DNA of 64,000 bases from Thalassobaculum sp. OXR-137. GTDB taxonomy: Bacteria; Pseudomonadota; Alphaproteobacteria; Thalassobaculales; Thalassobaculaceae. Position numbers and translations under genes: made by a program. The notes below the pieces were generated by a model that searched no databases, had not been told where the DNA came from, and worked only from the letters and a program-made list of their open reading frames with translations. Positions within the stretch are counted from its first letter, which is position 1; each line of letters starts with the position of its first letter. Shown piece by piece: positions 17,828 to 47,323 of the stretch. Location of the stretch: positions 2,588,001 through 2,652,000 of the forward strand of contig NZ_CP139715.1 of assembly GCF_034377285.1 (NCBI RefSeq). The letters are read 5' to 3'.

Positions 17828-18004
17828 TCAGCGACGGGGCGGCGCGGTTTGTCAGGCCGCACTTTACCCCTGGGGCTATAATCTCTCTGAGGGAGCTGCC
17901 TCTTCCGGGACCGTGGTCTCGGAATCGCGGCGCCCACCTGCTATGCAGGCCACAGAGGGTATGCATATGCCAACGGCCGAGGCGGCTCCGTCGCGCTGAA
18001 TTTT
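17828..18004 (+). ncRNA. ssrS: 6S RNA (SsrS) candidate
   Basis: The 350 bases between zapA and the 5-formyl-THF cyclo-ligase gene hold no ORF but strong RNA structure. TCAGC+GACGGGGC (17828-17840) pairs with GCTCCGTC+GCTGA (17985-17999) as a long closing stem with a 2-base bulge. Just inside is TACCCCTGGGGCTATAATC, which resembles the CCCCTGAGCCGATA bubble strand of E. coli 6S. Inner hairpins include TTCCGGGAC/GTCTCGGAA and CCTGC/GCAGG. 6S RNA binds RNA polymerase-sigma-70 in stationary phase, mimicking an open promoter. Gene context matches known zapA-ssrS-ygfA loci. The ends are approximate. Confidence 0.72.
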
Positions 18005-35019: not shown

Positions 35020-35832
35020 ATGCCAAGGTCGACTGAAGGGCGTGTTCTGATCGCTGCCGGATCCGATTCCGGCGGCGGTGCGGGGATCCAGGCGGATATC
35101 AAGGCGGTAACGGCACTTGGCGGATATGCCATGACGGCCGTCACGGCCTTGACCGCGCAGAACACCAAGGGTGTTTTCGGCGTCCACGAAGTGCCGATCC
35201 CGTTCCTGCGCCAGCAGCTCGACCTGCTGGTCGACGATATCGGCGTCGATGTGATCAAGACCGGCATGCTGCATTCCGGCCCGGTCATCGATACCATCGT
35301 CGATGTGATCGAGGAAAAGGCGATGCATGTGCCGCTGGTGGTCGATCCGGTGATGATCGCCAAGGGCGGCCATCCGTTGCTCAATCCGGACGCCATGCAG
35401 GTGCTGAAGGCGCGGCTGATCCTGCGCGCCCATCTGCTGACGCCCAATCTGCCCGAGGCGGAATTGCTGACCGGCATGACGATCAAGGACGTGGACGACA
35501 TGCACCACGCCGCCGAGATGCTGCTGTCGCTCGGTCCGCCGGCGGTGCTGCTGAAGGGCGGTCACCTGTCCTCCGACACCGTGGTCGACCTTCTGGCGAC
35601 GGAATCCGGCATTCGGGAATTCCGGAGCCGGCGTGTCGACAGCACCAGCACCCATGGCACGGGCTGCACCCTCGCCTCCGCCATTGCCACCGGTCTGGCC
35701 CAGGGGCTGGCCCTGGAGAAGGCGGTCGAGCGGGCGCGGAAATACGTGATCACGGCCATCGAGACCGCCCCCGGCTACGGGAAGGGCCACGGGCCGCTCA
35801 ACCACGTTCACACGGTCAAGGAACGCGCCTGA
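35020..35832 (+). CDS. thiD: Hydroxymethylpyrimidine/phosphomethylpyrimidine kinase ThiD
   Basis: A 270-residue ribokinase-fold enzyme that phosphorylates HMP and HMP-phosphate to the HMP-pyrophosphate used by ThiE (encoded at 12.2-12.9 kb). The start AAGSDSGGGAGIQADIKA, the substrate region PLVVDPVMIAKGG and the C-terminal ATP/anion-hole motif DSTSTHGTGCTLASAIA are intact. It lies 8 bases after glmM and converges on the GT20 gene with only 41 bases between. Confidence 0.95.
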   Translation: MPRSTEGRVLIAAGSDSGGGAGIQADIKAVTALGGYAMTAVTALTAQNTKGVFGVHEVPIPFLRQQLDLLVDDIGVDVIKTGMLHSGPVIDTIVDVIEEKAMHVPLVVDPVMIAKGGHPLLNPDAMQVLKARLILRAHLLTPNLPEAELLTGMTIKDVDDMHHAAEMLLSLGPPAVLLKGGHLSSDTVVDLLATESGIREFRSRRVDSTSTHGTGCTLASAIATGLAQGLALEKAVERARKYVITAIETAPGYGKGHGPLNHVHTVKERA

Positions 35833-35873: not shown

Positions 35874-37400
35874 TTACTCGGCTGCGACCGGCTTCTTATG
35901 GCTGACCGGGCGGCCGGCGCGGCTTTCGGCCAGTTCCTCGAAGCGCTCCATCGTGTGCTGCGACCACTGGACGATGTCGTAGTGGCTCACGTTCTTGCGC
36001 ATCATCTGCATGCGGGCGCGCTGCTCCTCCGGCTTCATGTCCAAGGCCTGGTCGATGGCCGAATCCATGAAGCGTTCGGAATAGGGGTTGGTCAGCACCG
36101 CATAGGGAAGCTGCACCGCGGCCCCCATGAACTCTGAGATCACCACGGTCCCGAGCTCGTCTATCCGGGCGGCGCAGTATTCCTTGCACACCAGGTTCAG
36201 GCCGTCGCGCAGCGGCGTCAGCCAGCACACGTCGGCGGCGCGGAAATAGGCGATCAGGTCCTGCAGCGGGATGGCGCCGGTGAACAGCATGATCGGCGTC
36301 CATTCGAAGGTGCCGAAGCGGCCGTTGATGCGGCCGACCAGCCCCTCGATCTCCTCCTGCACCCGCCGGTAGACGGCCATGTTCTGGTTGGCCAGCACCG
36401 AGACGCACATCAGGCGGATTTCGCCGTGCAACTCCGGGCGGCGCTCCAGCAGCCGTTCGAAGGACTCCAGCATCTCCTTGGTGCCCTTGGTGTAGTCGGT
36501 GCGGGCCACGGAGACGATCAGCCGCTTGCCGCCGAGTTCTTCCTTGATCTCCTGGAGCTTGGTCTCGGTCTCCTCGGAGCGGGCGAGCTCTTCGATGTAG
36601 TTGACGTTGGTGCCGACCGGGAAGGCGTCGATGTTGACGATCTGATCGTGATACTTCAGCCGGGTGATGATCGTCGGCTCGGACAGTGCCATGCCGCGCG
36701 GCGACATCCCGTCCTCCACGTCGATCTCCTCCTCGACGCTGACATCGAACAGGGTGCGGGCGGTGTTGGCGAAGTTCATGGCGTAGCGCGGGATGTGGAA
36801 TCCGACCTGATCGCAATGGAGCAGGCTGTCCATGATCTCGTTGCGCCAGGGCAGCACGTTGAACACGTCGGGCGACGGGAACGGCGTGTGGTGGAAGAAG
36901 GAGATCCGTGCGTTCGGCTTCATCTGCCGCAGATAGACAGGCACGAGCCACAGATTGTAGTCGTGGATCCAGATGATGGCGTCGTCGGCGGCCTGTTCGG
37001 CGGCGGCCTGGGCGAACAGGAAGTTCACCTCCTGGAAGGTCGGCCAGTCGACCGGTCCGTAGTCGTAGGCGTCGACGAAGGAATGGAGGATCGGCCAGAG
37101 CGCCTCCTTGGAGGTCACCGCATAGAAGCTGTTCACCTGGTCTTCGGTCAACGCCAGGCGGGAGACGGAGTAGTCGCCGAAATCGTCGCTGATGGTGACG
37201 ACCCGCTCCCAGTCCGGCATCTCGCCGTATTCGCGCAGTTTCCAGGCGATCCAGGATCCGTGGGAGACCTGACCGAAGAAACTCTTCAGCGTGGGGACGA
37301 TACCGTTCGGGCTCTTGTTCGGTCTGAGTTCGATCTTCCCATCGACCTCGACCTCCTCATAAGGCTGACGATGGTAGACGATGACCAGATCCGATTTCAT
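35874..37400 (-). CDS. ggpS: GT20 synthase, probably glucosylglycerol-phosphate synthase
   Basis: A 508-residue family-20 glycosyltransferase with the retaining GT-B fold. Visible motifs are [56 protein letters not shown] (donor phosphates) and [18 protein letters not shown]. Sequence alone also fits trehalose-6-phosphate synthase (OtsA). The glucosylglycerol-phosphate call (ADP-glucose + glycerol-3-phosphate) is inferred from neighbours: it is coupled to an HAD phosphatase and to gpsA, which makes the glycerol-3-phosphate acceptor. A glucosylglycerol-hydrolase-like gene is divergent. It overlaps the HAD gene by four bases. Confidence 0.72.
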
Positions 37401-38152
37401 GCCGCTGCCCCCCGAAGGCTCGTAAGTGTTCGAATCACCTCATGAATACCGGCGGCGCCGTTGCCGCGGCTGATTGTGGTGTTCTCCAGGCTCTTAACGC
37501 GCGAGACGAGGTCCGGTTCGCTGTTCGCGACCGCGACGCCGCGCAGGCCGGTCTCGAACAGGGACAGGTCGTTCATCGTGTCGCCGGCAACGAGCACCCG
37601 GTCGGGATCGATCTTCAGATGATCGACCAGCCGCAGCAGGGTCGGCCCCTTGCTCACGCCCTTGGGCAGGACGTCCAGATAGGTGCTGGCGGAGGTGAGA
37701 CAGTCGAACCCGGCCGCCTCGATCCGCTCGGCCACCGCCGCATCGTAGCGGTCAGGATCGTAGTAGTAGCTGACCCGGTAGCGGAACGGGGTGGGCTGCA
37801 GCTCCAGCCAGTCGACATCGGCGAGCATCTCGCGGACCCGGTCGCCCGCATCGCCCCAGCGCCGGGCGATATCGGCCTCCAGTTCCGGCACCGTCTCGAA
37901 CTCGGCCCCCTGGACGATGGTGGTGCCCACGTCGCCGATGACGAAATCGGGCTTCGGAACCCAGCCGTCGCCGGTCAGCTCGCGGATGAAGGGGATGTCG
38001 CGGCCGGTGACGAAGACCAGGGATATCCGGTCACGGTTGGCGTCGATGGCGGAATAGAGCGTCGAGCGCTCTTCGTCGGTTCCGCCGAGGAAGGTTCCGT
38101 CCAGATCGGTCGCCAGGACGACGTCCGCCTTGCTGGGGTCGGTGCGGGTCAT
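37397..38152 (-). CDS. HAD-IIB sugar-phosphate phosphatase, probably glucosylglycerol-3-phosphatase
   Basis: A 251-residue HAD-superfamily phosphatase of the sucrose-phosphatase/mannosylglycerate-phosphatase (IIB cap) type. Its four HAD motifs are clear: ATDLDGTFLGG, VFVTGR, the Lys in LPKGVSKG, and AGDTMNDLSLF. The cap (about 85-160) binds the sugar. Lying between gpsA and the GT20 gene, with ATGA overlaps on both sides, it most likely removes phosphate from the GT20 product. It is not the cyanobacterial StpA/GgpP-type enzyme. Trehalose-6-phosphatase or sucrose-6-phosphatase activity cannot be excluded. Confidence 0.72.
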   Translation of the reverse strand: MTRTDPSKADVVLATDLDGTFLGGTDEERSTLYSAIDANRDRISLVFVTGRDIPFIRELTGDGWVPKPDFVIGDVGTTIVQGAEFETVPELEADIARRWGDAGDRVREMLADVDWLELQPTPFRYRVSYYYDPDRYDAAVAERIEAAGFDCLTSASTYLDVLPKGVSKGPTLLRLVDHLKIDPDRVLVAGDTMNDLSLFETGLRGVAVANSEPDLVSRVKSLENTTISRGNGAAGIHEVIRTLTSLRGAAA

Positions 38153-39270
38153 GGCAGCATCTCCGATACATAGTCGCCTACGTCGTCTTCGTTTCCGTGC
38201 GGGATCCGAATGTTCATCGCCGCCGGCTCGGCCTTGAGCGGGCGTTCCATCAGCCGGCCGATGGCCTCCGAGATCTCGACGCCGTCGGCGACGATGGAGC
38301 GCACAGCCTCGCAGATCGGCATCTCGACGCCGAGCTTGCGGGCGAGATCGGTGACGGAGACGGCGTTGACCACGCCCTCCACCACCGAACGGCGGTTGCT
38401 CAGCAGGTCCTCCTGGCGTTTGCGCTGGCCGAGCGCCTTGCCGAAGGACATGTTGCGCGACTGCTCGCTCGAGCAGGTCAGCGCCAGGTCGCCCATCCCG
38501 GACAGGCCGGTGACCGTCTCGCGGCGGCCGCCGAGGGCCTGGGCCAGGGTCTTCATCTCGTCCAGGCCGCGGGTGATCAGGGCGGCCCAGGTGTTGGTGC
38601 CGAAGCCGGAGCCGCTGGCGATGCCGCAGGCGATGGCGATCACGTTCTTCACCGCGCCGCCGACCTCGACCCCGATCAGGTCGTCGGAGATGTAGGGCCG
38701 GAAGGACGGGGTGGCGAGCGCCAGGGACAGGCGGGTGGCGAGCGACCCGTGCGGGTTGTCCGCCGCATCGGCCGAGGCGATGGTCACGGCCGTCGGATGG
38801 CCGCCGGCGACCTCCGCGGCGAAGCTCGGTCCGGAGAGCACGGCGATCGGCCGTCCGGGCATGGCCTCGGCGACGACGGTGGTCATGAGCTTGCCGCTCT
38901 CCCGCTCCACGCCCTTGCTGGCGAGGACCACGGGCACGCCCGGCGCCGCGACCGCATGCACCCGCTCGCCGATATCGCGGATGGCCTGCGACGGCACCAC
39001 GAGCAGGATCGCGTCCACCCCGGCCACGGCCTGCGCCATGTCGGAGGTCGCGGTCACGCCGTCGGGAATCTCGTATCCCGACAACAACTGTTCGTTGGTT
39101 CGCTCGCGGTTGATCGCGGAGGACAGGGCCGGGTCGCGGGCCCAGAGGGTGACCTCTCCGCCGGCGCGGGCGGCGGTGATGGCAAGGGCGGTACCCCAGG
39201 CGCCGGCACCGATAACGGCGAATTTTTTTATCGCCGGAGCGTCACTTATGTCGGGGGAGAGCGTTGTCAT
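38149..39270 (-). CDS. gpsA: Glycerol-3-phosphate dehydrogenase [NAD(P)+] GpsA
   Basis: A 373-residue enzyme that reduces dihydroxyacetone phosphate to sn-glycerol-3-phosphate. It has the nucleotide-binding motif AVIGAGAWGTALA (GxGxxG, 21-26), LSGPSFAAEVAGG, the catalytic-lysine region GGAVKNVIAIACG, and GLSGMGDLALTCSS. As the first gene of a three-gene set with the HAD phosphatase and GT20 synthase, it probably serves as a dedicated acceptor supply for glucosylglycerol rather than only phospholipid synthesis. Whether another gpsA exists cannot be judged from this window. Confidence 0.93.
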   Translation of the reverse strand: MTTLSPDISDAPAIKKFAVIGAGAWGTALAITAARAGGEVTLWARDPALSSAINRERTNEQLLSGYEIPDGVTATSDMAQAVAGVDAILLVVPSQAIRDIGERVHAVAAPGVPVVLASKGVERESGKLMTTVVAEAMPGRPIAVLSGPSFAAEVAGGHPTAVTIASADAADNPHGSLATRLSLALATPSFRPYISDDLIGVEVGGAVKNVIAIACGIASGSGFGTNTWAALITRGLDEMKTLAQALGGRRETVTGLSGMGDLALTCSSEQSRNMSFGKALGQRKRQEDLLSNRRSVVEGVVNAVSVTDLARKLGVEMPICEAVRSIVADGVEISEAIGRLMERPLKAEPAAMNIRIPHGNEDDVGDYVSEMLP

Positions 39271-39312
39271 ATCGACTATGGGGGGAACTCCAAAGATTGA
39301 ATGGGGCCTCTT

Positions 39313-39341
39313 TAAAATGCATTGCAGCGCCGAATGATCAA
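39313..39341 (-). promoter_or_regulatory. Candidate promoter of gpsA-HAD-GT20 set
   Basis: On the minus strand TTGATC (39336-39341), 17 bases, then ATTTTA (39313-39318). Transcription would start near 39306, giving a leader of about 36 nt before the gpsA ATG. The -35 hexamer is the same as that proposed for the divergent hydrolase gene. Confidence 0.4.
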
Positions 39342-39394
39342 GGGTTGACCCCGCCGATTGGGCCCATAGTTGTTGCGGTGCAGCACGGCTCGGG

Positions 39395-39423
39395 TTGATC
39401 CCGGACCGCCGTCCCGGTTAGCA
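39395..39423 (+). promoter_or_regulatory. Candidate promoter of the glucosylglycerol hydrolase gene
   Basis: TTGATC (39395-39400), 17 bases, then TTAGCA (39418-39423), in the 205-base divergent gap. The -10 is poor. A clear ribosome site AGGAAGG lies 7-13 bases before the ATG at 39476. Confidence 0.3.
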
Positions 39424-39475
39424 CTATGCGGGTCCAGCGGGGCATCCTTACCACTTTGAATAGGAAGGAAACGCG

Positions 39476-41854
39476 ATGACGACCGCGGTCACTCAGAACG
39501 AAGAACGGACAAAGGAACTGGTGGATTGGTGCCGAAATGCGCTCGACACCTCGGCCACCCATTTCGACGCCGGTCTTCAGATTGCCCGCGGTCTGGGAGC
39601 GCATAAACGCGACGGTCTCTGCGAAGTCGGGTTCTGGGCGCCGGAACTGCTCGACCGCCGTGTGCCGGACGGCGACATCTTTCTGGAAGTGCTGGAGCCG
39701 GAAGAGCCGGTCGACCTGACGGTCTCGCGCCAGACGCTGCGCATGAGCCGCCAGCTCGTGCCGATCGGCCGCTGCGAGGCGTTCTGTTTCGCCGCCGTCG
39801 AGGGCATGCGCGCCGGGACCCGCGACGAGATCGGCTCGTTCTATGCGCTCGCCTGGCGCGACGACGAGGGCTGGCACCGCATTCTGGACCCCCTGGCCGC
39901 CTCCCTGCCGTTCGGCGCCTTCGCGCCGGCCGAATACTACGACGTGGCGGCGATGCAGGCGGAGCGCCGGGACAAGGAGTATTTCGCCAACCTCCCCGAG
40001 GGGGATCCGGTCAAGCTGGGCCCGCCGGTGAACATCCTGCAGATCCACGTGGCCACGGCGACCGCCGGCGGCACGTTGGCCAGCCTTACCCGGCGCTACG
40101 AGCATCTGGCCGAGCGGGTGCGCATGAAGCTGCCGGTCGAGCCGGCCGACCGCATTTTCCTGGGGTATGACGGCGTCCAACTGCTCCCCGTGGAGCCGAC
40201 GACGGTGTTCGAGACCGGACCGGACTTCTGGGAAGAACTGTCCGACGACGATGCCGACGACGAGAGCGTGACCGTCGAGCTGCACCGCCCCAATACCACG
40301 AACTGGGGCTACGACGTGGTGATCGCCGGCATGGGCGCCGTCAACCCGGCGATCCTGGAGACCGGCCGCCCGGATGAGCTGGTCGACCTTGCCGCCGTGC
40401 TCCACACCTTTCCGAGCGGGCCGAAGAAGCTGGTGTTCGACGTGGTCTTCGGCCACAGCGACAATCAGGGCCTGCGGGCGTTGAACCACCACTACTTCGC
40501 CGGCCCGAACATGTACGGGCAGAACATAAACTACCGGAACGGCATCGTCCGGGCCGTGCTGCTGGAGATGCAGCGCCGCAAGGCCGATTTCGGCGCCGAC
40601 GGCATCCGCGTCGACGGCGCTCAGGACTTCACCTTCTGGGACAGCAACACCGAGCGGGTGGAGCACGACGACGAGTACCTGCAGTCCATGTCCGACGTGG
40701 TGCAGGAGGTGGCGGGGCGCCGCTACCGGCCGTGGTTCGTGTTCGAGGACGGCCGGCCCTGGCCGCAGGAGGACTGGGAGCTGTCGTCCACCTACCGCGC
40801 GGTGATCGACGCCCAGCGCGACGACGACGTGTTCCAGTGGGGTCCGCTCACCTTCGCCCACAACACGCCGTTCCTCTATACGTTCTGGCTGTCCAAGTGG
40901 TGGCGGATCCGCGAGATCATGGAACATGGGGCGCACTGGATCTCGGGCTGCGCCAACCACGACACCCTGCGCCGGGGCACCCAGATCAATCCCAAGCTCA
41001 ACGTGAACACCCGCCTGGGCGACACGCGGATGGAGATCCTGGACAAGGCCTACGACAACCCGGCCGTTTCGCTGATCACCTACGGCGTGTTTCCCGGCGT
41101 GCCGATGGACTTCCTGAATGCCTCGGCGCGGGCGAGCTGGGGCTTCATCCGCAACCAGGACGACCAGTACGGCGTGAAGGTGGTGGCCGAGGAGGCGATC
41201 TCGCTGAAATGGCAGGTCGACAACTATTCCTACTCGGTGCCGATGGCGTTCCGCCGGCTCAAGGCCATGGGCTTCGAGGACCGGGACAGCCTGGTTCGGT
41301 TCATGGAGTTCCTGCCGGCCCTGGTCGAGGTCACCGGCTACGACCTGGACGTGATCGCCAAGCTGCTGAACGAGGTCGATCCGCCGCTGGCCGGACCGGC
41401 GCCGTTCACCGTGCCGATCCTGAAGCAGATCGCCCGAGCCTGGATGGACGACATGCACGACTACTGCAACGTGTCGGGCTACGAGGCGGCGCTGAGCGAG
41501 AGCCAGACCGCATTCAACCTGGGGCTCCGCGCGTTCCGCCACGCCCGGCCGTGGCTGCGGGACAACCTGCGACCGGAGGACGTCTACGAGTATCGCGAGC
41601 CGGTCGACGGCCGGGTCCTGTTCGGCACCCTGCGCCACGGTCCGGACGGCGAGCAGGTCTACGCCATCGCCCATCTGGAAGGCGGGGCGATGGAGAACTT
41701 CGATCCGCTGACCTTGCCGATCAAGGGGCTGGAAGGGGACGGCTGGAACGTCGCCCTGCGCACGCCGCCGATCGGCGGCGACTATATCGGCGGACCGATC
41801 ACCCTGTCGGACAGCATGGGTGTGCTCTACACCCGCAGCGCCGACCGACGCTGA
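39476..41854 (+). CDS. gghA: GH13-like glucosylglycerol hydrolase (GghA type)
   Basis: A 792-residue protein with a central (beta/alpha)8 barrel of alpha-amylase type. GH13 marks are the nucleophile motif ADGIRVDGAQDF (Asp380), a candidate acid/base Glu424 in WFVFEDGRPW, and ANHD (493-496), matching the usual NHD of the transition-state aspartate. An N-terminal beta-rich region (about 50-170) and a C-terminal beta domain (about 700-792) flank it. Length and layout fit the glucosylglycerol hydrolase family known from cyanobacterial slr1670. Divergence from the presumed synthesis genes supports a role in breaking down the osmolyte. The GghA identification is from memory of the family, not from an alignment. 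Confidence 0.72.
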   Translation: MTTAVTQNEERTKELVDWCRNALDTSATHFDAGLQIARGLGAHKRDGLCEVGFWAPELLDRRVPDGDIFLEVLEPEEPVDLTVSRQTLRMSRQLVPIGRCEAFCFAAVEGMRAGTRDEIGSFYALAWRDDEGWHRILDPLAASLPFGAFAPAEYYDVAAMQAERRDKEYFANLPEGDPVKLGPPVNILQIHVATATAGGTLASLTRRYEHLAERVRMKLPVEPADRIFLGYDGVQLLPVEPTTVFETGPDFWEELSDDDADDESVTVELHRPNTTNWGYDVVIAGMGAVNPAILETGRPDELVDLAAVLHTFPSGPKKLVFDVVFGHSDNQGLRALNHHYFAGPNMYGQNINYRNGIVRAVLLEMQRRKADFGADGIRVDGAQDFTFWDSNTERVEHDDEYLQSMSDVVQEVAGRRYRPWFVFEDGRPWPQEDWELSSTYRAVIDAQRDDDVFQWGPLTFAHNTPFLYTFWLSKWWRIREIMEHGAHWISGCANHDTLRRGTQINPKLNVNTRLGDTRMEILDKAYDNPAVSLITYGVFPGVPMDFLNASARASWGFIRNQDDQYGVKVVAEEAISLKWQVDNYSYSVPMAFRRLKAMGFEDRDSLVRFMEFLPALVEVTGYDLDVIAKLLNEVDPPLAGPAPFTVPILKQIARAWMDDMHDYCNVSGYEAALSESQTAFNLGLRAFRHARPWLRDNLRPEDVYEYREPVDGRVLFGTLRHGPDGEQVYAIAHLEGGAMENFDPLTLPIKGLEGDGWNVALRTPPIGGDYIGGPITLSDSMGVLYTRSADRR

Positions 41855-41878: not shown

Positions 41879-43645
41879 CTATTCCGCCGCGGTCTGCTGG
41901 GCGGGTTCGACGGCCGCGCCCGGAACCGGTGCGGCCACCCGGTCATCGAGGGAGAAGCGCTTCAGCAGCCCGAACGGCCGGGCAAGCGACAGAATGCCGG
42001 CCATGGCGAAGGCGATATAGACCAGCATCAGCGCGCTCGCCGCGCCGAGCAGGGACTTGGCCGTGTAGCGCACCTCGTGGACAGGTCTCGGCAATGCCGG
42101 ATATCCGGGGCGCCGTGACGGGGCGTCGTATTGGCGGATGGCGCCGTAATCGAGCGGGTGAACCCCTTCGATGACGGCGGAGCCGTAGCCCGCGGCGAAG
42201 GTGCTGCACAGGTTCTTCATGGACAGCCCGTAGTAGAGGCCCCGTCCGACCACCGTCCACATGTGCCTTAACGTGTAGTATTGCCGCCAGCTCTCCTGGA
42301 ACAGCGCCTGCCATTCCGTGCGCGTCATCAGCGGGTGATCGGTGATGACGTGAATGGTGTCGAAGGCGTTGAGATCCTCGTCGATCGGCACGCCCCCGCG
42401 CAGCATGAGCTGATGGTCCTTCGATCCCGGCAGGGGAGAGAGGGCGAAGAAGGTGACGATGTCGACGGGGATCTCGTCCTGCAGAAAACGGATGTCCTCG
42501 CGGACCCGCTCCGGCGTGTCGTTGGGAAAGCCGATGATCACGCCAGCGTAGATCATGATCCCGGCGCGCTTCCACGTCAGCACCATGTCGCGCATCAGAT
42601 GGAGCTTGTTCTGGCCCTTGGCCGCGGCCTTCAGGTTGTCCTCGCGCACGGACTCCATACCGAGGAAGATCCGCTTCACCCCCGCCTCGCGGCAGGCCTC
42701 CACGAAGCCCGGGATTCGGCTCGCCAGAGTGTCGACCTGCACGAGCACGTCCCACTCCCAGTCCAGCTCCCGCGAGAGGCGGATGAGGATCTCGGTGACC
42801 TCCCGCCAGATCGGGCTGCGGGCGAAATTGTCGTCGCTGATCAGGATGGAATGGCCGCCGACGGCGGCGACGCCCCGCAGATACGTCTCGATCGCTTCCG
42901 GCGACCGGCAGCGCATCGCATGGCCATGGACGTTGATGATCGTGCAGAAGCTGCAGATGAAGGGGCAGCCGCGGCCGACTTCCATGCCGTGGAAATTGTC
43001 CAGGGTTCTGGCCGCCACATCCGGCGCGGCGATCAGGGCCGGCGCTTTGCTGAGATCCGCTACCTGGGTGAGATTGTTGTAGAGCGGCTTGACGGCGCCG
43101 TCCCGGATGTCGCGCAGCAGGGCGTCCACCCCCGCTTCCAGCTCACCGGCGAAGAGGCTGATGCCCAGTTCCTTGACACCCGGAAAGGCGCCCTCCCATT
43201 CCGGCACCATGGCCAGCACGCCACTGACATGGAAGCCGCCGATGATCACCGGATATCCGGCTTCTCGGAACGGCCGGGCGATATCAACGGCCCGGGGGAA
43301 CTGATTGGTCTGCACGCCCACCATCATCACGGCGCAGCGGTCGAAACCGTCGAGCCAGCGCATCAGCTCGTCGGGCCGCAGCCGGTTGCTCATCTCGTCG
43401 ATGCGCCGGGTTTCGATCCGAATGTCCGGGCCGAGAGCCCATCGATCCGCCGCCTCGGCGAACAGGCCGTCGACGACGATCAGGACGTTCGAAATCATGA
43501 ACGAGCGCCACCACTGGATGACGAACCCGTCGTCGTCATAGTGGGAGGGCTTGATGAGCAGGAGGCCGACGGAGCGGACGCCCGATCCGAGCTCTTGATC
43601 GTGCACGTCCAGGATCCGGCTGGCGGGTTCGATGAGACTCGCCAT
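41879..43645 (-). CDS. B12-binding-type radical SAM protein with C-terminal membrane helix
   Basis: A 588-residue protein with a Rossmann-like cobalamin-binding region (about 45-190) lacking the classic DxHxxG histidine. A radical SAM core (about 215-430) has the cluster motif GRGCPFICSFC (Cys227, Cys231, Cys234), and the DDNFA, FLGMESV and GVIIGFPNDTPE motifs follow. After about residue 450 comes a tail with one hydrophobic helix (LMLVYIAFAMAGILSLA, about 540-556), suggesting membrane attachment. The layout resembles hopanoid or lipid-modifying radical SAM enzymes, but the substrate is unknown. It is convergent with gghA (24 bases apart) and has its own upstream gap with a strong GGGAGG site. 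Confidence 0.75.
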   Translation of the reverse strand: MASLIEPASRILDVHDQELGSGVRSVGLLLIKPSHYDDDGFVIQWWRSFMISNVLIVVDGLFAEAADRWALGPDIRIETRRIDEMSNRLRPDELMRWLDGFDRCAVMMVGVQTNQFPRAVDIARPFREAGYPVIIGGFHVSGVLAMVPEWEGAFPGVKELGISLFAGELEAGVDALLRDIRDGAVKPLYNNLTQVADLSKAPALIAAPDVAARTLDNFHGMEVGRGCPFICSFCTIINVHGHAMRCRSPEAIETYLRGVAAVGGHSILISDDNFARSPIWREVTEILIRLSRELDWEWDVLVQVDTLASRIPGFVEACREAGVKRIFLGMESVREDNLKAAAKGQNKLHLMRDMVLTWKRAGIMIYAGVIIGFPNDTPERVREDIRFLQDEIPVDIVTFFALSPLPGSKDHQLMLRGGVPIDEDLNAFDTIHVITDHPLMTRTEWQALFQESWRQYYTLRHMWTVVGRGLYYGLSMKNLCSTFAAGYGSAVIEGVHPLDYGAIRQYDAPSRRPGYPALPRPVHEVRYTAKSLLGAASALMLVYIAFAMAGILSLARPFGLLKRFSLDDRVAAPVPGAAVEPAQQTAAE

Positions 43646-43774: not shown

Positions 43775-46700
43775 TCAGGACTCTCCTTTGTCCTGCTCCG
43801 TCGACTCCCAGGGCTTGGGCACCCGCGGCGGGATGGCATAGGTCGGCGTTTCCTGATCCAGGCTCAGGTTAGGGTTGAAATAGGGGTCGGCGTCCAGCGC
43901 ATCGCCCCACTTGTCGCGCATCCACATCATCTCGCCACGGAAGCGGTCGCGCTTCTCGTCGGTGTCCTCATGGCCGCGCGACACCGACTCGTGGTGATAC
44001 AGCTCGGCATAGGGCGTCAGCACGATGCGATGGCCGGCGGCGCGGATCTTCAGGCAGAAATCCACGTCGTTGAACGCCACTTTGAGTTCCTTCTCATTCA
44101 TGCCGCCGATCTGCTCGTAGATCTTCTTAGTGGTCAGCAGGCAGGCGGCGGTGGTGGCGCTGACGTTGTGAATCAGCTGGGCGCGGTTGAAGTATCCGGG
44201 CGCCTCGCGCGGCAGGTGCTTGTCGAAATGCCCGGCCACGCCGCCGATGCCGGTAGTCACGCCGACATGCTGCACGGTGTCGTTCGGGTAGTAGAGCTTT
44301 GCCCCGACGGCGCCGACGCCCGGCCGCTGGAGCTGCCGCACCATCTCTTCCAGCCAGCCGTCATCGATCGGCTCGATGTCGTTGTTCAACAGGAGCAGCA
44401 GCGGACCCTTGGCCAGCTCGGCGGCCCGGTTGTTCAGACGGGAGAAGTTGAACGGCTCGTCGTCTCGCAGGACCGCGATCCGCTCGTCCTTCTGGATCTC
44501 GGCGAAGTATTCCAGCGTCTCCGCCTTCTGCGAGCCGTTGTCGACGACGATCAGGTCCCAGTTCGGATAACCGGTCTTCTCCAGCAGCCCGGTGACCACC
44601 ATGCGCATCATGTCGACCCGGTCGCGGGTGGGCACGAGGATGGTGACATGCGGCTTGCGGGCGGGCAGGGCCGGGACGACCCGGTGGCTCAGTCCGTCGC
44701 GGCCGGCGACCACCTCGGCCTTCACGCCGCTGCGCTCCAGGTGCTCGGCGATCGCCTTGCGCGCCCGCTCGTAGGGGTAGGTCTTCTCGCCGGTGCCCAG
44801 CGCCACGCTGCCGGCGACCATACGCCAATGGTACAGCACGGCGGGGATGTGGCGGACCCGCTCGACGCTGGTCTGCTCCAGCACGCGCAGGGCCATGTCG
44901 TAGTCCTGGCTGCCCTCGAAGCCCTCGCGGAACCGGCCGGCCTTCTCGACCAGCGACCGGCGGTAGACGCCCAGGTGGTTGATCATGTTCTGCGACAGGA
45001 ACAGCTCCGGCGACCAGTCCGGCTTGAAGTAGGGGTCGGAGATCCGCCCCTCCTCGTCGATCTTGTCCTCGTCGGAATACAGGATGTCGGCGTCCGGATC
45101 GGCCTCCAGGCTGGCCGCCATCCAGTACAGGGCATCCTCCGTCAGCTCGTCGTCATGGTCGAGCAGGGCCATCCACTCGCCGGTCGCCACCTCCAGCGCC
45201 GAGTTGCTGGCAGCTGAGATGTGCCCGTTGGTCTCGCGGAAGACGACCTTGATGCGCGGATCCTCGGCGGCGTAGCGCTCCAGCATCTTCCGGGTTTCCG
45301 GGCTTTTCGAGCCGTCATCGGCGATGCACAGTTCCCACGCGTCGTAGAGCTGGGCCTTCACGCTCTCCACCGCCTTTTCCAGCAGGGCGGGCGGCGTCTC
45401 GTAGGTCGGCATGACGATGGAGAAGACAGGTTTCGTCTCCATGCGCGCAACATGGGCGCGGATGGCGGCCCGGTCGCTATCCGTCAGCGCATAGAACAGG
45501 TCGCGCCAGTCGTCGTAGGTCTCGATCGGCTTCGGCAGCTTCTTGATCAGGTATTCCTTCAGCCCCTGCACACCGCCTCGGCGCAGGTTGCCGACGATGG
45601 GGCGCACGCCTTCCTGGGCATAGGCATTGGTCGCCAGGACCCGAAGCAGTTCCGCCCGGGTGATCTCCCGTGCCCGGATCGGCCCCATCTCGAACCGGCC
45701 CTTCCAGCTGATCGGGTCGAGCCGAAGACCCTTTACGTCGTCGGGCAGGCGCACGAAGCAGGTGACGGTCTCGCCGCTGGTGACCGGCAGCCGCTTGCGG
45801 TCGATCTCCGCCGTTCCGGCGCCGGTATCGGCGAACAGCGACGGCGCCGCCATCCGATCGGCCTTGATGGCATAGGTCAGCTCGACCCAACCGGTCGGCA
45901 TCCGAACCCGATCGGACTGCAGGACCATGACGCAGAAGGTGTCGGTGGCTTCCCAGACGTCGCCGTCGATATGCTTCGCCCGGAACAGCTCGCCCGGTCT
46001 CAGCGTGTGGGTCACCCGGCGGGCACGGCGGGCGAGGTTGCCCGCCTTGCGCAGCGGCGCGGTGACGCGCCACGACGTGGAAGCCTCCAGCGCGCCGATA
46101 TGGTTCTGCAGATCGGCGCGGGCCATGGCCAGGTTGTGGATATGGCCGTCCCGGGTCTTCACCTCGCTCTGCAGGTCCGAGACGTCGTCGCGGAGGTCGT
46201 CGATGGTGCCGCGCAGGGACTCGATGGTCTCTTCCAGGGCGCCGATCGTGCGGTCGCGGTCGTCGATGACCCGCTCGCGCTCGGCGACCCGCAGGTCCCG
46301 CTCCGCCACCCGGCCGTCGCGTTCGCGCACGCTGTCGTCCAGGAGGCGGATCCGGTTGTCGCGCTGGTCGATCTCTTCGCGCAGGCGCAGTTCGATTCCG
46401 GCCCAGTCGGCGAAGGTGTCGTCGAAATAGTAGGATGCCCGGTCGATCTCGACCTGAACCTCCCTAACCAGTGCAAGCGCCGTATCGCGGTCGCCGGTAT
46501 CGGCCATCCGGACGGCGTCGTAGATGCGGCCGACCCAGGCCGCCAGGGCCGGCTCGGTCTTCAGGATGTCGTCGTCCAGGGCGTGGTGGCGCAGACCGAC
46601 ATCGAGGAATCCGTCGATCTCGGACGCGGCATCCCCTATGCGGTTCGCAAATCCGAGATGCAGGTCGCCGTCGACCCGCTCCATCTCCCCCCGCCAACCG

Positions 46701-47323
46701 GCCATGAGCCGATCGAAGCTGGCCCAGGATTGCGGGATACCCTCGCTGCAGGTCAGCGCCTCGATCTGATGGCGCAGCCACAGCATCAGGGCCCGGCCCC
46801 GGGGCATGGCGTCGCGGCGCTCCAGGGAGCGGGCGATCTCCAGCGGATGGCGGAGCATGTGCAGGACCGTCACCTGGACGCCCCGGTCCGCCAGCATCTG
46901 GCGCCACAGCGGCAGCAGGCGGCACATGCGGGGGTCCTTCACCCCCCACAGGGCGGCGTCGGAGAACTCGGCGTCGAGGATGGCCTCCAGATCCTTGCGC
47001 GCCGCGCGCGTTACCGGATGATCCAGCCAGCCCTCCGGCATGGCGCGCGGATCGTCCCAGCGCATGCCCAGATCGGCCAGCAGCCGGTCGTGACGGGTGA
47101 CGACGCCCTGATGCTCCCAGAATCCACGGTCGTTGTTGCCCTCGGCCGCTTCCATCAGGTCGGTGCCGAGCTCGACGCCCAGCAGGTTGACCACGCGGGT
47201 CAGGGCGGAGGTGCCGCTGCGGTGCATGCCCAGGACGAGCAGGGCGGTCTGCGGTCGCGCGTCCGGTGCGGAGGTTGCCCCGCTGTCCTTGTCATCGAGG
47301 GGGGCGTCTGTCGTCGTGGGCAT
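43775..47323 (-). CDS. Sulfotransferase-like / coiled-coil / tandem GT2 glycosyltransferase fusion
   Basis: An 1182-residue multi-domain protein. Residues 27-270 form a sulfotransferase-like domain with the PAPS phosphate loop GMHRSGTSA (32-40) and the VLHMLRHPLEIARSL strand. Residues 305-415 are a coiled coil with repeated RDxRxxERD units. The STSWRVTAPLR linker (415-425) is often seen in surface-polysaccharide glycosyltransferases, and 440-550 is beta-rich. Two GT2 domains follow: 632-850 (SIVMPTYETP, LDHDDE) and 893-1110 (TILVPTRDR, LLNNDIEP, NDVDFCLKIRAAGHR). It probably builds or sulfates a surface glycan. Neighbouring secretion and sugar genes support this; no single homologue is claimed. 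Confidence 0.8.
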   Translation of the reverse strand: MPTTTDAPLDDKDSGATSAPDARPQTALLVLGMHRSGTSALTRVVNLLGVELGTDLMEAAEGNNDRGFWEHQGVVTRHDRLLADLGMRWDDPRAMPEGWLDHPVTRAARKDLEAILDAEFSDAALWGVKDPRMCRLLPLWRQMLADRGVQVTVLHMLRHPLEIARSLERRDAMPRGRALMLWLRHQIEALTCSEGIPQSWASFDRLMAGWRGEMERVDGDLHLGFANRIGDAASEIDGFLDVGLRHHALDDDILKTEPALAAWVGRIYDAVRMADTGDRDTALALVREVQVEIDRASYYFDDTFADWAGIELRLREEIDQRDNRIRLLDDSVRERDGRVAERDLRVAERERVIDDRDRTIGALEETIESLRGTIDDLRDDVSDLQSEVKTRDGHIHNLAMARADLQNHIGALEASTSWRVTAPLRKAGNLARRARRVTHTLRPGELFRAKHIDGDVWEATDTFCVMVLQSDRVRMPTGWVELTYAIKADRMAAPSLFADTGAGTAEIDRKRLPVTSGETVTCFVRLPDDVKGLRLDPISWKGRFEMGPIRAREITRAELLRVLATNAYAQEGVRPIVGNLRRGGVQGLKEYLIKKLPKPIETYDDWRDLFYALTDSDRAAIRAHVARMETKPVFSIVMPTYETPPALLEKAVESVKAQLYDAWELCIADDGSKSPETRKMLERYAAEDPRIKVVFRETNGHISAASNSALEVATGEWMALLDHDDELTEDALYWMAASLEADPDADILYSDEDKIDEEGRISDPYFKPDWSPELFLSQNMINHLGVYRRSLVEKAGRFREGFEGSQDYDMALRVLEQTSVERVRHIPAVLYHWRMVAGSVALGTGEKTYPYERARKAIAEHLERSGVKAEVVAGRDGLSHRVVPALPARKPHVTILVPTRDRVDMMRMVVTGLLEKTGYPNWDLIVVDNGSQKAETLEYFAEIQKDERIAVLRDDEPFNFSRLNNRAAELAKGPLLLLLNNDIEPIDDGWLEEMVRQLQRPGVGAVGAKLYYPNDTVQHVGVTTGIGGVAGHFDKHLPREAPGYFNRAQLIHNVSATTAACLLTTKKIYEQIGGMNEKELKVAFNDVDFCLKIRAAGHRIVLTPYAELYHHESVSRGHEDTDEKRDRFRGEMMWMRDKWGDALDADPYFNPNLSLDQETPTYAIPPRVPKPWESTEQDKGES

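Follow-up and report, generated by a model that had tools for sequence, protein, structure and literature searches.

We report on a cluster of four genes in Thalassobaculum sp. OXR-137 (NCBI RefSeq assembly GCF_034377285.1, contig NZ_CP139715.1, positions 2,588,001 to 2,652,000 of the forward strand; this stretch of 64,000 nucleotides is the window), which probably serves the synthesis and breakdown of glucosylglycerol (GG). The genome is 5.65 Mb, and the closest named relative in our comparison is Thalassobaculum litoreum, with a GgpS 95% identical to that of the window. The locus has the following features (window coordinates; G and L numbers are our handles for compared genomes, G000 being the window genome, and for loci):

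35874..37400, minus strand: ggpS (GT20), proposed glucosylglycerol-phosphate synthase, 508 aa
37397..38152, minus strand: HAD-IIB (S6PP-like), proposed glucosylglycerol-phosphate phosphatase, 251 aa
38149..39270, minus strand: gpsA of operon type, NAD(P)H glycerol-3-phosphate dehydrogenase, 373 aa
38152..38226, minus strand: codons for the C-terminal tail of GpsA, residues about 349-373
39271..39475, no strand: divergent intergenic region between gpsA and gghA, 205 bp
39476..41854, plus strand: gghA-like GHL5 glycoside hydrolase, proposed glucosylglycerol hydrolase, 792 aa

The initial annotation had described gpsA, a phosphatase gene and a GT20 gene overlapping by four bases each, with a GH13-like gene divergent from them, and the coordinates bear this out. 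Both the gpsA/HAD and the HAD/ggpS junctions are 4-bp overlaps reading ATGA, and the GH13-like gene points away from gpsA across the intergenic region, a gene order that recurs in other genomes. The three synthesis genes are translationally linked and probably carried on one transcript. Family profile scores of the encoded proteins are far above chance (Glyco_transf_20 438 bits, S6PP 150, NAD_Gly3P_dh_C and _N 171 and 168, GHL5 820). The 3' end of ggpS converges on thiD (35020-35832, plus strand), the last gene of a tilS-ftsH-folP-glmM-thiD run (thiD was named from profile matches, the other four from reading the proteins). Third-position G+C is 0.86-0.91 in the four locus genes and 0.83-0.89 in their neighbours, so base composition does not point to a recent arrival of the locus.

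The GT20 protein scores 649.8 bits on the curated GgpS equivalog TIGR02398 (cut-off 569), covering model positions 1-483 of 487, and remains below the cut-offs of the OtsA-type models (TIGR02400, 401.2 of 564.85 bits; PRK10117, 251.5 of 759; PRK14501, 444.9 of 634). It is the single GT20 found in a genome-wide search, and a Trehalose_PPase (OtsB) domain was found in none of four Thalassobaculum genomes, with six of 14 control genomes positive. In an alignment of 30 proteins, the Arg of a P-x-S/T-R motif, which in OtsA presumably contacts the phosphate of glucose-6-phosphate, is present in all 16 lower-scoring non-GgpS GT20 proteins and in none of the 14 GgpS; K98 (window numbering) occurs in 14/14 and K54 in 13/14 of the latter. 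As judged from sequence, the earlier proposal that this is a synthase of the glucosylglycerol-phosphate family is thus supported.

To see how widely the arrangement occurs, we used a class-wide sample of 385 genomes and an own-family sample of 61 genomes. Moreover, the contigs of 84,980 species were scanned, which gave 478 ggpS relatives; the best 80 were kept for locus counts and, being the most query-like, are not representative of all 478. GgpS exceeded its cut-off in 14 of the 385 class-sample genomes and GHL5 was found in five, both being present in four (G000, G002, G050 and G063); in the own-family sample GHL5 occurs in 6/61. In 69 of the 80 loci gpsA lies upstream of HAD and ggpS, and GHL5, within the fetched flanks of 12/80, is rarer than this synthesis set. 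Going by record titles, 76 of the 80 loci bear no label other than alphaproteobacterial names, the exceptions being Variovorax (L158), a gammaproteobacterial metagenome-assembled genome (MAG; L193) and two Actinomycetota MAGs (L174, L191). The order gpsA-HAD-ggpS was also present in all 18 GgpS genomes inspected among the G handles (in G375 split over two contigs) and in plasmid records of Dinoroseobacter shibae and Falsirhodobacter algicola, in which ggpS is annotated; in four ggpS-free family members (L138-L141), there was no HAD or ggpS match near gpsA. The synthesis operon is therefore a recurrent arrangement and not special to the window locus. A complete GG locus in an alphaproteobacterium had been put forward, and of this the gene set stands; the operon recurs, and alphaproteobacterial genes of both kinds are already in print, ggpS as a table line in an excerpt of PMC7002103 and gghA homologues, known from alphaproteobacteria and archaea, in an excerpt of PMC5002435.

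The HAD gene is directly upstream of ggpS in 80/80 loci, including the 11 without gpsA nearby. The protein is S6PP-like (PF05116) and keeps the DxD (D16, D18), K168 and GDxxND (D191, N194, D195) residues, which we take to have the usual HAD catalytic roles; the alignment behind this includes a row (L061) read in a wrong frame, so that its "nearly invariant" marks are partly an effect of that row. None of the 15 NCBIfam matches of the protein (E 0.001) is to the StpA-type model TIGR02399; a genome-wide search with that model was negative in 20/20 genomes, the controls being silent too. The profile matches of the protein itself support the view that the phosphatase encoded here is a separate HAD-IIB protein, unlike the StpA type of cyanobacteria, and since phosphatase and synthase occupy separate overlapping frames, the suggested difference from the fused GgpPS also stands. 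An apparent HAD-ggpS fusion in L061, an open frame of 829 aa, was rejected because HAD is encoded in a different frame and ggpS begins within the long one; L067 was rejected on the same grounds. Fused GgpPS was also sought in 321 genomes of the Variovorax class, where four proteins were over the GgpS cut-off and none was fused; HAD is upstream in 4/4 of these genomes (37-57% identity) and gpsA within 1.5 kb in 1/4. In one genome of this class (L254, G473), the C-terminal part of a GHL5 gene sits immediately before HAD-ggpS in the same orientation.

The divergently encoded protein scores 819.8 bits on GHL5 (PF14872; gathering cut-off 23.7), and its best NCBIfam match other than GHL5 is TreZ at 27.4 bits (cut-off 538.8). 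D322, D380, E424 and D496 are invariant in 13/13 aligned GHL5 proteins; we take them to match GH13 regions I-IV, with D380, E424 and D496 presumably the catalytic Asp/Glu/Asp of a GH13-like barrel. There was no PDB sequence match at E 0.001. The predicted structure (mean predicted local distance difference test score, pLDDT, 64.6) has pullulanase and branching enzyme, both GH13 enzymes, as its best fold matches at a template modelling (TM) score of about 0.4, which for a model of such low confidence is loosely consistent with a GH13-like barrel and no more. GHL5 is the family to which Slr1670 (GghA), needed for re-assimilation of GG, is assigned in an excerpt of PMC5002435, and the suggested kinship with GG hydrolase is thereby supported at the family level, sucrose phosphorylase and trehalose synthase being unsupported. 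No cyanobacterial GghA was found among the plasmid records, the one record that matched being alphaproteobacterial. On plasmid pSC52_1 of Rhodobacteraceae SC52 (L288), a GHL5 gene directly follows the glycogen genes glgB-glgC-glgA-glgX-malQ.

Taken together, the GG reading is well supported by the sequence comparisons, and we assign a probability of roughly 0.85 to the locus being one for GG synthesis and breakdown. The substrates, products and salt regulation that we infer are as follows. GpsA would reduce dihydroxyacetone phosphate to glycerol-3-phosphate, onto which GgpS would place the glucose of a nucleotide sugar, either ADP- or UDP-glucose; the HAD-IIB enzyme would strip the phosphate to give GG, and the GHL5 enzyme, whose gene is transcribed away from the synthesis genes, would hydrolyse GG, releasing glucose and glycerol, once osmotic stress eases.

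Several observations weigh against this. GHL5 is present in 4/14 GgpS genomes of the class sample, so synthesis is not regularly accompanied by a GHL5 enzyme for breakdown. GHL5 is named hypothetical in Pfam, and the likeness to Slr1670 is by shared family and not by direct alignment. No NCBIfam equivalog was over its cut-off for the HAD protein, so that it is the linkage that indicates its substrate. Synechocystis GgpS requires ADP-glucose (excerpt of PMC6004087), and glgC exceeds its cut-off in G000, G002, G050 and G063 and not in G293 (Tistrella) or G216 (Stella); ADP-glucose from GlgC is consequently not to be assumed as the donor for all. Finally, a scan of the divergent region for consensus promoters and terminators gave nothing, with no sigma-70-type site and no promoter for either transcript.

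Two other products deserve consideration. The GT20 and HAD proteins could make trehalose, as an OtsA with an unusual phosphatase and with GHL5 as a trehalase-like hydrolase; every solved relative of the GT20 is either a trehalose-phosphate synthase or of the VldE type, and promiscuity is a trait of HAD-IIB enzymes. We nevertheless rejected trehalose as highly improbable, because the sole GT20 passes the GgpS cut-off and fails those of OtsA, the acceptor-site Arg is absent, the Thalassobaculum genomes have no Trehalose_PPase domain and linkage to gpsA makes no sense for trehalose. Slightly less improbable, and still quite unlikely, is another glucoside of a glycerol-phosphate-like acceptor, e.g. 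a glycolipid or exopolysaccharide precursor, with a different GHL5 substrate. Sugar-transferase and polysaccharide genes downstream in the window, the GHL5 gene adjoining the glycogen cluster of SC52 and the presence of GHL5 in G280, which has no GgpS over cut-off, would fit such a product, while the GgpS equivalog match and the persistence of HAD-ggpS linkage amid diverse flanks speak for GG.

On the GpsA equivalog NF000942 the window protein scores 408 bits (cut-off 257), and the next match in the genome reaches 34 bits, so it is the sole GpsA over the cut-off. Its best fold match is GpsA 3k96 (TM 0.95 by target, for the predicted structure). Also among the fold matches of the model is DsGPDH of Dunaliella salina (PDB 6iuy), which presumably carries a HAD-type phosphatase domain and has an osmotic role; the algal protein is a fusion making free glycerol, whereas the window locus has separate enzymes and a proposed glucosylated product. 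The gpsA had been called "dedicated", which is apt in that it is of the operon type described below; a dedicated second gpsA was rejected, there being no extra copy. In 17 of the 18 G-handle genomes no GpsA other than that of the operon exceeds the cut-off (G375 has two). Among 39 named locus genomes (L210 left out), two matches were found in 18, a single one within the operon in 10 and a single one elsewhere in 11. Across both sets, gpsA lies in the operon in 46 genomes; it is the sole copy in 27 of them and is joined by another in 19. In one of these 19 (G437), the operon copy is of the divergent L180 type, just below the cut-off (251.7 against 257). Tistrella mobilis (G293 contig 4, L151) carries the operon, with the genome's only GpsA over the cut-off, on plasmid pTM3 of 1.13 Mb, a presumably essential gene on a secondary replicon. 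In G203 (L067, 7602-7763) an N-terminal gpsA fragment lies between an intact gpsA and HAD, as might be left by a duplication or exchange of gpsA within the operon.

A GpsA tree was computed from 123 proteins with the tails cut off (short search, no bootstrap; 17 of 84 operon rows left out as near-duplicates, and L082, L104, L114 and L123 omitted or replaced by re-fetched copies). It places 66 of 68 operon GpsA in one group (Shimodaira-Hasegawa-like approximate likelihood ratio test, SH-aLRT, 96) together with two reduced relatives of the window genome, G193, G280 and the unlinked tailed GpsA of G444; no native row and no row from a GG-free genome falls inside. When the tree was thinned to 96 rows, support for the group without L059 was 97.5, and a position of L059 inside it is not rejected (p of the approximately unbiased test, p-AU, 0.653); the one-clade test dropped 25 more operon rows, L180, which is a long branch, and L099. 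Given this clade, the operon GpsA probably arose once, L180 being a possible exception. Being alone in its genome, the window GpsA presumably also serves lipid synthesis; the ordinary gpsA would have been lost in this lineage, with the operon enzyme now feeding phospholipid synthesis as well.

The operon GpsA proteins also share a C-terminal tail. It was measured from a point 36 residues after the [VIL]x[ML]PI motif and scored when at least 12 further residues were present. By this measure 67/68 operon GpsA are tailed, with a median of 23 residues, the value also of the window protein, which thus has no ordinary chain end. Tails of at least 12 residues occur in 3 of 50 measured other GpsA (G444, G193 and, with exactly 12, the second GpsA of G375), in 0/17 measured native copies of two-copy genomes, in 0/8 measured single copies elsewhere (G444 excluded) and in 0/19 measured GG-free rows; five non-operon rows were unmeasurable by script, among them native L231, which by eye ends about 7 residues past the usual end. 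The tail roughly follows E-P-x-A-L/M-x-h-x-h-x-H-P, with an HP or NP pair in 53/68 operon GpsA. In pairs from Thalassobaculum and its sister genus, the proportion of non-synonymous differences (pN) in the tail is below the synonymous one (pS) in 15/15, over few sites, and above the pN of the body in 14/15, so the tail is constrained, less so than the enzyme body. In the predicted structure, with a mean pLDDT of 91.1, the last blocks fall to 68-77.

Genomes without the pathway offer a comparison. Two 1.5-Mb genomes of the same genus (L134/G001 and L135/G005) have no GgpS or GHL5 match and keep tilS-ftsH-folP-glmM-thiD followed by gpsA in the same place (GpsA 72-74% identical), with non-coding DNA of 23-24% G+C where HAD and ggpS would be. 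In these 1.5-1.7 kb between thiD and gpsA there was no tblastn match to HAD or ggpS and no 60-codon open stretch. Their GpsA tails have 2 and 9 residues. The two loci have 37% G+C, compared with 65-68% in Thalassobaculum relatives (window genome 5.6 Mb), as in genome reduction. Two further genomes lack a GgpS over cut-off, G280 (with GHL5), with a tail of 6 residues, and G193, with 25; of the three lineages without GgpS, two have lost or shortened the tail and one has kept it.

The tail may couple GpsA to osmolyte synthesis, either by docking it to its partners or by changing its regulation. In its full form, the proposal is that the operon GpsA is a distinct isoform for GG supply, whose conserved tail docks to GgpS and/or HAD or lifts feedback inhibition by glycerol-3-phosphate, and which moved together with the operon, at first alongside the ordinary GpsA and later in its place in Thalassobaculum and other lineages, so that glycerol-3-phosphate for membrane lipids would depend on an osmolyte operon; we regard this as possible and rather doubtful. 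Alternatively, the tail may have no role and be a neutral stretch that came along with the operon and lets the gpsA stop reach the start codon of HAD; we take this as a serious possibility that still falls short of probable. It would agree with the one clade and probable single origin, by which the association of tail and operon does not count as many independent cases, with the faster change of the tail than of the body, with the tail kept in G193 and with the almost tailless operon GpsA of L180. The constraint within the tail, the pattern recognisable from Thalassobaculum to Rhodobacterales, and the loss in the two reduced relatives and shortening in G280, all without GgpS, are better accounted for by a function of the tail.

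Compared with known systems, the locus shares with the cyanobacterial GgpS-GgpP-GghA set (Synechocystis sll1566, slr0746, slr1670) a GgpS-family synthase and an adjacent, divergent GHL5 hydrolase gene; in cyanobacteria, according to an excerpt of PMC6753628, gghA lies upstream of ggpS on the opposite strand, and a figure legend there names gpsA among the neighbours of ggpS/gghA in some cyanobacteria. It differs in its S6PP-like phosphatase, in having gpsA, HAD and ggpS as one overlapping set with a tailed GpsA, and in having no glpK among its immediate neighbours (no genome-wide glpK search was made). The GgpPS of heterotrophs such as Marinobacter, which occurs with a GG phosphorylase, likewise has phosphatase followed by synthase in a heterotrophic host (excerpt of PMC10873239), but as one fused protein, and the same excerpt has gghA homologues as not found alongside that pathway; the window has two genes and a GHL5 hydrolase. 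The loci on Dinoroseobacter shibae pDSHI02 and the Falsirhodobacter algicola plasmid have the same gene order and tailed GpsAs; they differ in being on plasmids and in having no gghA annotated within the stretches read. The available portions of PMC7824335, PMC9361551, PMC8168540 and PMC5507952 hold no description of the gpsA-HAD-ggpS operon, and neither the operon nor the nature of its GpsA, with its own clade and tail, was found described in our searches of the open-access literature (subscription papers were outside the scope).

The locus thus points to a recurrent alphaproteobacterial GG route that has a phosphatase type and a GpsA of its own, as against the GghA-free fused route of PMC10873239 (as excerpted). 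It would also be a case in which a presumably essential enzyme of lipid synthesis has seemingly been replaced by a pathway-specific copy, for which two-copy, one-copy and pathway-free genomes are available for comparison; in D. shibae, with the operon on pDSHI02, the tail hypothesis would be directly testable.

Other features of the window include, adjoining the hydrolase gene, one for a radical SAM protein (41879-43645, minus strand) with weak matches to B12-binding families, none over cut-off, followed by one for a 1182-aa protein (43775-47323, minus strand), whose C-terminal half has two matches to family 2 glycosyltransferases. Finally, a 6S RNA was predicted at 17834-17992 (plus strand) with 65.2 bits, the gathering score being 46.4.

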